Of a stretch of DNA of 64,000 nucleotides, positions 52,258 through 64,000 are shown one piece after another; positions within the stretch are counted from its first letter, which is position 1; every line of letters begins with the position of its first letter. The stretch is from positions 1-64,000 of the forward strand of contig SEFT01000014.1 in assembly GCA_004144175.1 (NCBI GenBank), written 5' to 3'. Source of the stretch: Sphingobacteriales bacterium (GTDB lineage: Bacteria; Bacteroidota; Bacteroidia; Chitinophagales; Chitinophagaceae). The translations under genes and the position numbers were made by a program. Under the pieces are notes generated by a model, which was given only the letters and a program-made list of their open reading frames with translations, was not told the origin of the DNA and did no database searches.

Positions 52258-53460
52258 ATGAGGGTAGCGCCAATTCTGCAAAATGAACAGGCCCGCTTGC
52301 GGGACTTATATTCTTACGATATACTCGATACATTGCCGGAAAGTGATTTCGACCACTTGACGAAAATAGCGTCTGAAATATGCCAGACGCCTATTTCAAT
52401 GATCAGCATTATCGATGCCGACCGTCAATGGTTCAAATCGAAACAGGGCCTTGCAGTACAGGAGACACCACGCGAAGTTTCGTTTTGCGCACACGCCATA
52501 GTTAATCCCAATGATGTGTTCCTGGTGCCAAACTCGATGGATGATGAGCGCTTTGCCGACAATCCGCTCGTGACAGGCGAACCGCGTGTGATGTTTTACG
52601 CCGGTGTACCGCTGGTAACCGATGCTGGCTATCCCCTAGGTACGCTTTGCGTGATAGATAATACCCCTAAAAATCTTACAGACAGCCAAAAGGAAACGCT
52701 CAAGGCCCTTGCCCGGCAGGTAGTTTGCCTGTTGCAATTGCGTAAACGGAATTTGCAACTGGATGAGAGTAAAAAGCAGCTGGAAGAAGTAAATTCGGAG
52801 CTGGAGAAATTTGCCTACCTGGTGGCCCACGACATGACCTCTCCCTGTAATAATATGATCATGCTCTCCGAATTATTGGAGGAAGGTCATGCTGATAAGC
52901 TGGATGAAGAAGGGATGGAGATGTTGGGATACCTCAAGAGCGTATCGGGGTCGCTCCGCGATCTTATAAAAGGTATATTAGATTATTCGCAGGTAATGCA
53001 TCAGTGGCAAGCCGAGCGTCTGTCATTTTCGTTTGAGGAGCTGGTAGGGGAGTTGAGGCTGTTGATACACCTTCCCGAGCGCTTCTCTTTTGAGTATGCC
53101 GGGCCGGATGCCAGCATCTTTTCTTCAAAATCGGCCTTGTTGCAGATATTGCTGAATCTCGTTCAAAATGCCATAAAGTATAATGATAAAGAGCAGGGCC
53201 GCATAGCGATTCGTTTTTCAGAAGACGATAATTTCTACAACTTTTCAGTAGAGGACAATGGCCAGGGTATATCGGCCGAACACTACGAGCGGGCGTTTCA
53301 GCTTTTTGAAACCTTTAGCCTTAAAGACAGGCTGGAACAAAAGGGTTATGGTATTGGTCTATTTACCGTTAAGAAGTTGATCCGCAAGTTCGGGGGAGAT
53401 ATCCATATTACCTCAGAAATAGGCAAGGGTACCAGCTTCACGTTCACTATTAAGAAGTAG
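52258..53460 (+). CDS. GAF-domain sensor histidine kinase
   Basis: 400 residues. GAF domain (about 20-165: [63 protein letters not shown]). HisKA box [14 protein letters not shown] with His191. HATPase_c with [16 protein letters not shown] and KGYGIGLF. No membrane helix, so a cytosolic sensor. The expected response regulator is not next to it, but a stand-alone one lies at 47547. A TATCTTTG box lies 44 bases upstream. Confidence 0.93.
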
Positions 53461-60513: not shown

Positions 60514-61575
60514 ATGAATCAGGTAACCGAGTTTTTTAAAAAGTTATTCGACACTTCAGATTTTCCGGCCCGCTGGCATTGCGGCAATTGGTCTGACTTT
60601 CACGGTTGGTTGTACATAACCAGCGAATTGCTGATTTGGTCAGCCTACTTTGCCATACCGCTTATCATTATCCGGTATGTCACCCGCAAACAAAAGGCAG
60701 TCAACTTTCATCCGCTTTATTTTCTTTTTGCATCATTCATCCTACTGTGCGGAACTGCGCACTTTATAGATGCTATGATCTTTTGGACGCCTGTTTACAG
60801 GATCAGCGCCATACTTAAACTGATTACCGGTATTGTCAGCTGGACTGCTGCTATATACCTGATACGCCTGCTGCCCGTAGCATTCAGCTACCGGACGCCA
60901 AAGGAAATGGAGGAGGAGATAGAACTTCGCAGGCGCGCCCAGGAAGAACTTACATATAAGAACCACCAGCTGCAAGATGCAGAGCAAATGGCTAAGATAT
61001 GCTTTTGGCAGTGGGACATTAAAAATGATACGATAGAGTGGTCCGACTCCACTTATGAAATATATGACCTACCTCAGGGGCACCACCTGAACCTGGAAAT
61101 GTTTATACAGGCAGTGCATTTTGAGGAGCAGGAATTTGTACGTGGTGTGATCAAAAGTGTGCTGAAAAACAGGCAATTCCCGGAGTTTTTTTGCCGCATC
61201 ATCACGCCACGGAAAGTTATAAAACACGTTTTTGTAAAGGGCTCGTTGTCGTTTGAGGAAGAAAAGCTGGTGAGGCTCAATGGCACCATGCAGGACGTGA
61301 CCGAGCAGCGGGAGCACCTTCAGCAAATACAACTGCAAAATGAACGCCTTACCGAGATCGCCTGGATACAGTCACATAAAGTGCGTGGCCCGGTAGCGTC
61401 TATTCTAGGCCTTGCCCAGCTGTTCAACGAAGATGACCCTTCGGACCCCGTAAATAAGGAAATAGTCGACAAGCTGAAGACTGCAACTGCCAATCTAGAT
61501 AATATCATTAGAGAGATAAACGGCAAGACGGCTGGCCTGCATGTAGCACGGACGAAAGAAAAAGTAATGCCCTGA
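60514..61575 (+). CDS. Sensor with ethylene-receptor-like membrane domain, PAS and HisKA, lacking the ATPase domain
   Basis: 353 residues. Residues about 35-115 carry three membrane helices with the pattern of the plant ethylene receptor ETR1: SELLIWSAYFAIPL (ETR1 SDFFIAIAYFSIPL), then FILLCGTAHFID (ETR1 FIVLCGATHLIN). Cys79 and His83 match the copper-binding Cys/His; Glu38 replaces ETR1 Asp25; Tyr45 is kept. A PAS domain (about 155-262) and a HisKA helix with His288 (WIQSHKVRGPVASILG) follow. The protein stops about 65 residues after that His, so no HATPase_c. It may be a phosphotransfer or receptor subunit for another kinase. The stop lies 1 base from the BLUF gene's stop. Confidence 0.87.
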   Translation: MNQVTEFFKKLFDTSDFPARWHCGNWSDFHGWLYITSELLIWSAYFAIPLIIIRYVTRKQKAVNFHPLYFLFASFILLCGTAHFIDAMIFWTPVYRISAILKLITGIVSWTAAIYLIRLLPVAFSYRTPKEMEEEIELRRRAQEELTYKNHQLQDAEQMAKICFWQWDIKNDTIEWSDSTYEIYDLPQGHHLNLEMFIQAVHFEEQEFVRGVIKSVLKNRQFPEFFCRIITPRKVIKHVFVKGSLSFEEEKLVRLNGTMQDVTEQREHLQQIQLQNERLTEIAWIQSHKVRGPVASILGLAQLFNEDDPSDPVNKEIVDKLKTATANLDNIIREINGKTAGLHVARTKEKVMP

Positions 61576-61576
61576 T

Positions 61577-61990
61577 CTAAGACAAGAATTTTCGGAGCAA
61601 TATCAATACAGGGCTACCGGAGTTGGCTGCTGTTTCCTGGCTTAACCCATCTGTTGGCAGGTCCAGATATCCCTCTGCTTCTTCATACTCTTTTGCTGAA
61701 ACAGACTTGAAGCCCATGGACCATTCTGCAAAGGTCCGTTCTGGCTCATAACCCTCTATTTTCTTTAGTACAAGGCTATGTCGACCGTCAAGCGCTATCT
61801 TTTGATAGATAGATAGGACTTTTTCTTTCTCCCCTTCCAGCACCTGGATGAAGTGATTGTTGTGATACAGCAATATACCGGTAATGCCTGCCTTCGTGTT
61901 GTTCTCTCTGCTTACCGCCAGTATGTTCTTTAGCGTTTGTTCCGTAAGTAAGGGTGCTGCCTTACTGTTATATACAAGGTAATAGATCAT
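61577..61990 (-). CDS. BLUF-domain blue-light receptor
   Basis: 137 residues. One BLUF domain with all key residues: Tyr7 (LVYNS), Asn31 (NNTKAG), Gln49 (FIQVLEG), Trp90 and Met92 (EWSMGF). Binds FAD and responds to blue light by a hydrogen-bond switch. A short C-terminal part has no output domain. Start at ATG 61990 gives the correct N-terminus (the longer frame is not BLUF). Ends tail to tail with the sensor gene. Divergent from uvrA, sharing the 143-base region 61991-62133. Confidence 0.93.
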   Translation of the reverse strand: MIYYLVYNSKAAPLLTEQTLKNILAVSRENNTKAGITGILLYHNNHFIQVLEGEKEKVLSIYQKIALDGRHSLVLKKIEGYEPERTFAEWSMGFKSVSAKEYEEAEGYLDLPTDGLSQETAANSGSPVLILLRKFLS

Positions 61991-62133
61991 GGATGTAGGC
62001 TGTAAAAATAATAAAGGTTGGCGTAGCACTCAATAGTTATCATCGATTTGCTCCATATCAATCCTTATGGATTTTAGGGTATATGGCCGGTCATTCCCAC
62101 CTGTAAATTCGTTAATTTCGCTTAGCAAATTTT

Positions 62134-64000
62134 ATGGCAGAAAAGAAAGCGAAAACAGCGGCGGGCGTTAAGAAAACGAAGCAGGAGAAGACAGCGGTTG
62201 AAGGGATATCGGAGCCGCAGGTAGACCATGGCGAAGCCAACTATGGCGCCAGCGATGAGGTAATATTCATCAAAGGCGCGCGTATGCACAACCTGAAGAA
62301 TGTGGATGTTGCGATCCCGCGCAATAAGCTGGTAGTGGTAACGGGCGTATCCGGCTCGGGCAAGTCGAGCCTTACCATGGATACCTTATTTGCAGAAGGG
62401 CAGCGCAGATATGCAGAGAGCCTGAGCGCCTATGCGCGCCAGTTCCTGATGCGGATGGATAAGCCGGATGTAGACTATATACGTGGCATATGCCCCGCAA
62501 TAGCCATTGAACAAAAAGTGACTACACGTACGCCCCGTAGTACCGTGGGCAGTATGACGGAGATATATGACTTCCTGCGCCTGATGTTTGCACGGATAGG
62601 CAAAACATACTCGCCTGTTAGCGGGCAAGAGGTGAAGAAGGACAGCGTGAGTGATGTGGTAGACTTCATCGGCAGTTTGCCGCTGGGTGTCAAAGTACAG
62701 ATCATTGTACCGCTGGTAACGCACTACGGCCGTACCGTAGTAGAAGAGCTGAACATACTGATGCAAAAAGGCTTCAGCCGTGTGTATGCTAAAGGTGATG
62801 AGCGCCCGATACGTATAGAAGATGTACTGGCTGATACAGACCCTAAGGTTACAAAAAAAGTAACATCGGGCAAGGATATATACCTGCTCATCGACCGTAT
62901 TGTTACTAAAGAATTTGAGGAAGACGATCTGCATAGGCTAGCCGATAGTATACAGACCGCTTTCTACGAAAGCGAAGGTGACTGCCTGCTGGAGCTGGAC
63001 GGTAAGAAGCTGCACAACTTCAACAACCGCTTTGAGGCTGACGGGATGACCTTTGAGGAACCTACGCCAAACCTATTCTCTTTTAATAATCCCTACGGTG
63101 CTTGCCCTACCTGCGAAGGTTTTGGACAGATACTCGGCATTGACCCAGATCTAGTGATACCTGACAAAAGGCTAAGTGTGCACGAAGGTGCAGTAGCCTG
63201 CTGGCGCGGCGAGAAAATGAGCGAATGGCAACATTCGTTTATACGCACGGCTGCTAAGTATGACTTCCCGGTACACACACCGATAGCCGACCTGACGGAG
63301 AGCGAATATGACCTGCTGTGGGCTGGCAACAGCCGCGTGAAGGGCATTACCGATTTCTTTGAGATGGTAGAGCAGAACCAGTATAAGATACAGTACCGCA
63401 TTATGAAGGCCCGCTATCGCGGGCGTGCGCTCTGCACTACCTGCAAGGGCTCAAGGTTGAGGCCCGAGGCGATGTATGTAAAGATAGCAGGCACTACCAT
63501 TGCCAACCTGATGTTCATGCCGGCAAGCGACCTGTACGAGTGGTTCAATAACCTGGAGCTGAGTGAACACGACCAGATGATTGGTAAACGCATCCTCATA
63601 GAGATAAACCAGCGGATGAAGACGCTGCTGGATGTTGGCCTCAGCTACCTTACGCTCAACCGACTGGCAAATACGCTATCGGGTGGTGAAAGTCAACGTA
63701 TACAGCTTACTAAGTTTTTGGGTAGTAACCTTACTGATTCGCTGTACATACTCGATGAGCCGAGCATTGGCCTGCATTCTCGCGATACGGAAAGATTAAT
63801 TAGCGTATTGAAATCATTACGCGACCTTGGTAATACAGTAGTGGTGGTAGAGCATGATGAGATGATGATGCGCGAAGCGGACTATATTATAGATATGGGG
63901 CCGCTGGCCAGTCACCTGGGTGGTGAAGTAATAGCCGCAGGGCCGTATAATGAACTGATAAAAAATAAGCTGAGCCTAACAGGCCAATACCTGAGTGGCA
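62134..64000 (+). CDS. uvrA: UvrABC excinuclease subunit A (partial, 3' end missing)
   Basis: The first 622 residues of UvrA; the reading frame runs out of the window. The Lys/Ala-rich N-terminus of about 35 residues precedes the first ABC domain (GVSGSGKSS, Walker A). Zinc-finger Cys are in ACPTCEGFG and CTTCKGSRL. The signature [16 protein letters not shown] with [10 protein letters not shown] follows. UvrA finds DNA damage and loads UvrB for nucleotide-excision repair. ATG at 62134. The gene begins 143 bases from the BLUF gene, divergently. Confidence 0.97.

Follow-up and report, generated by a model that had tools for sequence, protein, structure and literature searches.

What does an ethylene-receptor-type protein do when its kinase half is missing? 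The question is raised by a gene in the window, a 64,000-nucleotide stretch of contig SEFT01000014.1 of a Sphingobacteriales bacterium (contig C39 of G000 in our set), whose genome measures 4.34 Mb, is 97.6% complete, and holds a single ETR1_N domain. The original prediction, made from the sequence of the window, described a sensor with the membrane domain of ethylene receptors in a phylum where none was expected, lacking the ATPase half of a histidine kinase and perhaps borrowing another kinase. In the available text of PMC7700396 and PMC11819568, bacterial ethylene-binding domains (EBDs) are described for cyanobacteria, proteobacteria, and other, unnamed phyla, and the bacterial ethylene receptors that have been tested signal as kinases.

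The reading frame starts with ATG and contains no internal stop (Table 1). A Pfam scan of the 353-residue protein returned ETR1_N (PF25487; E = 4e-28; 98 bits against a cut-off of 27; residues 30 to 124, covering profile positions 2 to 95 of 97) and HisKA (PF00512; E = 1.3e-6; residues 287 to 335), placed a PAS_3 match just under its cut-off (E = 3.9e-5; 24.3 bits versus 25.6), and found no HATPase_c. An AlphaFold2 model built on 53 aligned sequences (mean pLDDT, 86.4; pTM, 0.61) predicts three long helices for the membrane domain, with C79 and H83 together on the second, spaced i/i+4. A linker helix (residues 129 to 160) and the PAS fold follow, and then a DHp hairpin with arms at residues 263 to 303 and 312 to 351, after which only two residues remain. 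A Foldseek search against the PDB gave mostly PAS-containing structures among the best 50 of 1138 matches, the first being a LOV-PAS-kinase; for the membrane domain, the only solved structure matched by sequence was a synthetic protein (E = 0.099). The profile match and the alignment with ETR1 described below thus bear out the ethylene-receptor type of the membrane domain, and Pfam and the model both agree with the original prediction that the protein ends after PAS and HisKA (His288) with the ATPase half missing. A convergent BLUF-domain gene (61577 to 62029, minus strand) ends 2 bp beyond the stop codon at 61575, with uvrA next at 62134, and the nearest HATPase_c matches on the contig lie at 53131 and 78203. 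A frameshift joining a downstream HATPase part, the outcome that the original prediction had named as contrary to its own claim, was thereby ruled out. The BLUF gene is a blue-light sensor gene in its own right (Pfam, E = 6e-28).

Table 1. Coordinates of the gene, its domains, and its key residues in the window, and of similar DHp-only genes elsewhere in the same genome
Feature	Position	Strand	Basis
Kinase-less ethylene-receptor-type sensor, 353 aa, EBD-PAS-DHp	60514..61575	+	ORF, Pfam, AlphaFold2
ETR1_N membrane domain of the ethylene-binding type; predicted helices 29-58, 67-88, 95-125	60601..60885	+	Pfam, AlphaFold2
Glu38 (codon GAA), ETR1 Asp25 position; only Glu in 117 tabulated rows	60625..60627	+	Alignment
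Cys79, ETR1 Cys65 position (Cu ligand)	60748..60750	+	Alignment, codon
His83, ETR1 His69 position; Tyr, Gln, or Phe in kinase-less sisters	60760..60762	+	Alignment
Lys102, ETR1 Lys91 position; Arg in Tyr and Phe groups, Lys in Gln pair	60817..60819	+	Alignment
PAS fold, residues 162-261	60997..61296	+	PAS_3 just below cut-off; AlphaFold2 model; Foldseek against the PDB
HisKA-type DHp hairpin, residues 263-351, near C-terminal end	61300..61566	+	Pfam, DHp profile, model
His288 of SHKVRGP, phospho-acceptor position; Lys at H+1	61375..61377	+	Alignments, H-box motif
Five other DHp-only proteins in the window genome (L161-L164, L166)	C88:195022, C88:199953, C8:81644, C8:89130, C47:46464		DHp profile

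The idea that such a membrane domain is unexpected in this phylum failed. In an even sample of 395 Bacteroidota genomes, 21 carried ETR1_N (the window genome counted), against none of 14 control genomes, and when genome contigs were scanned with an EBD alignment, 288 stretches matched and 234 of them encode relatives. The 80 best of these 234, many of them from named Chitinophagaceae genera, made up an 80-locus set in which 61 proteins scored for HATPase with an in-house profile and 15 were complete and kinase-less; as for the rest, L100 ends in what looks by eye like a different type of ATPase, L111 and L139 appear to carry frameshifts, and L115 runs off its contig end. ETR1_N domains recur in Bacteroidota, above all in Chitinophagaceae, and they usually belong to full kinases that retain the copper Cys and His. 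An oddity within the phylum or a recent arrival from cyanobacteria is unsupported, because both of the trees described below, which contain no cyanobacterial row, place the domain within the kinases of Chitinophagaceae. A plasmid origin was also rejected, since all 116 matching plasmid records fell below 60% identity. A combined-term literature search found nothing linking EBD histidine kinases to Bacteroidetes, and an ethylene review mentions Bacteroidetes solely for ACC deaminase.

Homologues without HATPase_c, a search for which the original prediction had proposed as a check, occur throughout the genus: exactly one ETR1_N was found in each of 15 genus genomes, and in the other 14 the open frames (347 to 388 residues) stop just a few residues beyond the DHp. 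A search of 394 genomes of the family, with up to five candidates scored per genome, added, among the matches listed, at least four kinase-less members in genus g242 (G486, G569, G630, and G677) and at least five in genus g21 (G034, G550, G618, G665, and G704), along with more degenerate kinase-less relatives in G735, G760, and G577. At the level of the order, a search of 396 genomes at E ≤ 1e-70 matched eight, all of the same family. Three distant kinase-less relatives (L247, L248, and L249) have lost much of the ethylene-binding signature and kept the PAS and DHp. Kinase-less loci in MAG records titled Azovibrio restrictus and uncultured Bacteroides (L147 and L150) group with the genus, and those titles look mislabelled.

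In a first tree of the membrane domain, the kinase-less rows (19 of 105) formed one group with support of 97/75 and a single origin in 98% of 200 bootstraps; in a second tree, built after dropping 35 rows (ETR1, L045, and others that were long or distant were among those dropped), 26 of 101 rows did so with support of 91/77 and a single origin in 92%. Neither support pair reaches the tree tool's strict mark of 95 and 80, the second figure being under 80 in both, and we regard the placement of the kinase-less proteins in one clade as moderately supported by these sequences. The window row groups with two rows of the Gln type (named for the copper His position discussed below; 99/77 and 93/57) on a fairly long branch (0.45 and 0.37 in the two trees), and its DHp is only 46 to 57% identical to those of four sisters. 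Nei-Gojobori counts for eight kinase-less sister pairs, with L132 used three times, gave whole-gene dN/dS values of 0.021 to 0.054 in the five pairs with finite dS and membrane-domain values of 0.009 to 0.078 in six pairs, all of the Tyr or Phe type; with dS near or above 1, these ratios are rough. For the pair that includes the window gene dS was saturated, and the dN/dS estimates apply to its sisters. One explanation of the missing half is a decaying kinase remnant or an assembly artefact, in which a former EBD kinase would be drifting after the loss of its ATPase half. In favour of this, the copper site is altered in several branches, and the frameshifted appearance of L111 and L139 indicates that such breakage does occur in the relative set. 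Yet the same end point is reached in 15 genus genomes and two further genera, the phospho-acceptor His288 is invariant in both alignments examined, and dN/dS in the sister pairs is 0.02 to 0.05, so decay or artefact appears very improbable. The conserved kinase-less architecture looks like that of a real signalling protein in the genus. Our preferred reading, to which we assign a probability of about one half, is a kinase-dead receptor that would act in trans via its HisKA-type DHp, which follows a PAS domain and a membrane domain of the ethylene-receptor type with three helices.

Whether the signal could be ethylene depends on the copper site. In an alignment with ETR1, positions Y32, I35, P36, I62, C65, G66, H69, and K91 are conserved in the window protein and D25 is replaced by Glu, as had been claimed for this gene. 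C79 is encoded by TGC and H83 by CAC, and K102 and C23 were confirmed as read. Over 117 tabulated rows, which include second copies from some genomes and omit L062, L064, and L079, the Asp25 position holds Asp in 111, Asn in 4, a gap in 1, and Glu in the window protein alone. In the 80-locus set, Cys and His are intact in all 61 proteins that score for HATPase, and 60 of these have Asp at the Asp25 position (Asn in L158); Asp, Cys, and His are all retained in 11 of 11 further full kinases. None of the 23 other kinase-less genomes tabulated keeps the copper His: the residue is Tyr in 12 genus genomes, Gln in two (L042 and L043), Phe in the four of g242, and Tyr or Phe in the five g21 copies, in which Ser or Thr also takes the place of Cys. 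Of the complete kinase-less proteins read, the window protein alone has both Cys and His. The best reading of these substitutions is that the kinase-less lineage is moving away from the Cu(I)/ethylene site. Since the membrane domain of the sister pairs examined is under purifying selection without the copper His, its role there would be independent of that His.

The window protein itself retains Cys79, His83, Tyr45, Ile48, Pro49, Ile76, and Lys102, and these residues would suit a functional copper/ethylene receptor served by a kinase on another protein, with C79 and H83 binding Cu(I), Glu38 taking the place of Asp25, and the borrowed kinase phosphorylating His288. AzoEtr1, a tested ethylene receptor of Azospirillum, would be in line with such a receptor in its EBD-PAS-HisKA order (PMC11819568). 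The Glu, unique in 117 rows, and the loss of the copper His in the kinase-less sisters argue the other way: according to the available text of PMC11819568, ETR1 loses ethylene binding when C65 or D25 is mutated, and D25 positions H69 in modelling, and that of PMC12643061 names Asp25, Cys65, and His69 as the essential copper site. A receptor of this kind therefore seems unlikely to us, and binding of Cu(I) and ethylene by the window protein, with C79 and H83 kept and Asp25 changed to Glu, is possible but rather doubtful. Of the residues tied to the ligand originally proposed, the window protein has the Cys and His but not the Asp, and ethylene is weakened as a candidate because the copper His is replaced in the 23 other kinase-less genomes. 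The clade belongs to a phylum other than those named in the sources cited at the outset and keeps the membrane domain with the kinase absent and the copper His mostly absent; its natural variants at the Asp25 and His69 positions offer a probe of copper-site requirements.

Known systems share parts of this arrangement. AzoEtr1 (Azospirillum brasilense, 525 aa) resembles the window protein in domain order and in an EBD with Cys and His (PMC11819568), but it has Asp35 and an ATPase half, whereas the window protein has Glu38 and no ATPase half; it also has an adjoining response regulator gene, as described in the available text of the same source, whereas no regulator is linked to the window protein. 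A 525-aa copy with D35, C75, H79, and K98 was the first-listed plasmid match (26% identity over residues 9 to 294). Arabidopsis ETR1 and Synechocystis SynEtr1 share with the window protein the ETR1_N domain and the equivalents of Cys65, His69, Lys91, Tyr32, and Pro36; the window protein differs from both in the change of Asp25 to Glu and in having no ATPase or receiver domain. ETR1 carries a GAF domain where the window protein has PAS. The nearest homologues outside the clade are full-length EBD kinases of Chitinophagaceae (for example L086, L104, L113, and L202 to L212), and the EBD of kinase homologues is up to 63% identical; these kinases carry HATPase and, nearly always, as detailed below, an acid at H+1, their Cys and His are intact, and feoB was not seen nearby. 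Split kinases, in which phospho-acceptor and ATPase reside on separate proteins, are known from CheA3/CheA4 and Hik36/Hik43 (PMC3591291, PMC7656254) and lend some plausibility to a borrowed kinase, but in the available text of those sources they are CheA-type proteins with P1/HPt domains and known partners, whereas the window protein has a HisKA-type DHp on a membrane sensor.

The output half is altered as well. The H-box SHKVR[SA]P occurs in 15 of the 15 kinase-less proteins of the 80-locus set, with Lys after the His in all 15. At the other 65 loci, 54 H-boxes were found by motif and 11 were not, and the H+1 residue was Asp or Glu in 53 and Asn in one. Elsewhere in the kinase-less relatives, H+1 is Asn in the Gln pair, Arg in some g21 copies, and Asp in the distant L249. 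In the window protein, Lys289 replaces the usual acidic residue beside His288. An acid at H+1 usually supports phosphotransfer, and Thr or Asn at H+4 supports phosphatase action; both are missing in the window protein, and therefore its DHp could be only a dimerisation stalk.

On the preferred reading of a kinase-dead receptor, the protein would most likely be a homodimer whose membrane domain shifts conformation upon a signal. The change would be relayed through the PAS to the DHp, which would dock the receiver of an unlinked response regulator in trans and would either take or give phosphate through His288, like an HPt domain, or lower the phosphorylation of the receiver. The window genome offers parallels. 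It has 67 HATPase_c matches and 19 matches to a DHp profile, and six of the best seven of the latter, this protein included, have no nearby HATPase_c. The N-termini of the five others are of multi-PAS, MASE11-PAS, and other kinds. The DHp-only gene at C8:81644 is followed 26 bp downstream by a gene for a 121-aa Response_reg protein (E = 1.5e-18), and the one at C8:89130 has a divergent 127-aa receiver-only neighbour (Response_reg, E = 2e-13). Action on receivers is proposed mainly because these two DHp-only genes adjoin receiver-only genes.

Around the EBD genes of 17 kinase-less relatives, no receiver or HATPase gene was found in a search that covered mostly 5 to 6 kb on each side (less for L133 and L180), ORFs of at least 90 aa, and a single receiver query; the neighbourhood thus names no partner for the preferred reading, and the lack of a linked kinase gene also weighs against a receptor with a borrowed kinase. 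The GAF kinase at 52258, which the original prediction had suggested as the kinase to be borrowed, lies 7 kb from the EBD gene with at least six ORFs on both strands between them, and no homologue of it was found near the 17 relatives; on these grounds it was rejected as a linked partner, and the suggestion is unsupported. The BLUF neighbour was likewise rejected as a linked partner because no homologue was found around the same 17 relatives. The clade provides a test case for signalling by kinase-free receptors, a question that also arises for the ethylene receptors of plants.

The gene neighbourhood of the relatives raises another possibility. A feoB gene lies upstream on the same strand at 15 of the 15 kinase-less loci of the 80-locus set versus 0 of the 65 other loci, 62 of which include at least 1 kb of upstream sequence; a representative feoB scores FeoB_N at 5e-56 (Pfam). 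Counted by genome, feoB is upstream in 20 of 26 readable kinase-less contexts, comprising 13 of the other 14 genomes of the genus (in G001 a contig end interrupts the locus), 4 of 4 in g242, and 3 of 5 in g21. At 10 of the 14 genus loci compared, the first gene downstream of the EBD gene is convergent and of the IscA type (Fe-S_biosyn, Pfam), and in L129 IscU- and IscS-type genes come after it (Pfam). In 24 genomes of the family in which no kinase-less copy was found, the gene after feoB mostly varies. All of this would be consistent with a membrane domain that the clade has refitted to ferrous-iron physiology, sensing iron, another metal, or redox state or modulating FeoB, with the copper site dropped or changed. 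On the other hand, the upstream neighbour of feoB is mostly conserved too in the kinase-less loci, and four of the 24 comparison genomes share a similar gene after feoB (by eye); judged from this gene order, the linkage is strong but partly a matter of shared descent. The gap between feoB and the EBD gene, in which promoter-like motifs were seen by eye, is 103 to 162 bp at 14 of 15 loci and 487 bp at the remaining one; with a gap of about 0.7 kb in G704 as well, these distances argue against a clear single operon. In the window genome, feoB is on a different contig from the EBD gene, with its upstream neighbour kept and a carbon-nitrogen hydrolase gene after it. In G550 and G665 it is on the same contig as the EBD gene, about 19 kb away, and in G577, G735, and G760 it was not found within about 2 kb. 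We consider a refitting to iron improbable. A wider proposal is that Chitinophagaceae converted the membrane domain of an ethylene receptor into a class of kinase-free receptors: in the lineage without the kinase half and with its gene behind feoB, the copper site changed (Tyr, Phe, or Gln for His; Glu for Asp in the window protein), and the domain would now read iron, another metal, or redox state and signal by DHp docking alone. This proposal is speculative and probably incorrect as a whole; if true, it would give an ethylene-binding-type domain a non-ethylene job.

A different combination of copper handling and ethylene-receptor domains also came to light. In G461, a single 1532-aa frame (L243:2189-6787) joins HMA, E1-E2 P-type ATPase, ETR1_N, PAS, HisKA, and HATPase_c domains (Pfam), with a CPC motif and a receiver-like gene next to it (both by eye), which would make it a copper-type pump fused to an ethylene-receptor-type kinase. 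None of the literature matches listed described a bacterial fusion of a copper ATPase and an ethylene receptor in the title or the start of the abstract. L242 (G276) has the same layout by length and sequence, and the pump-receptor fusion of L243 recalls the RAN1-ETR1 copper supply of plants.
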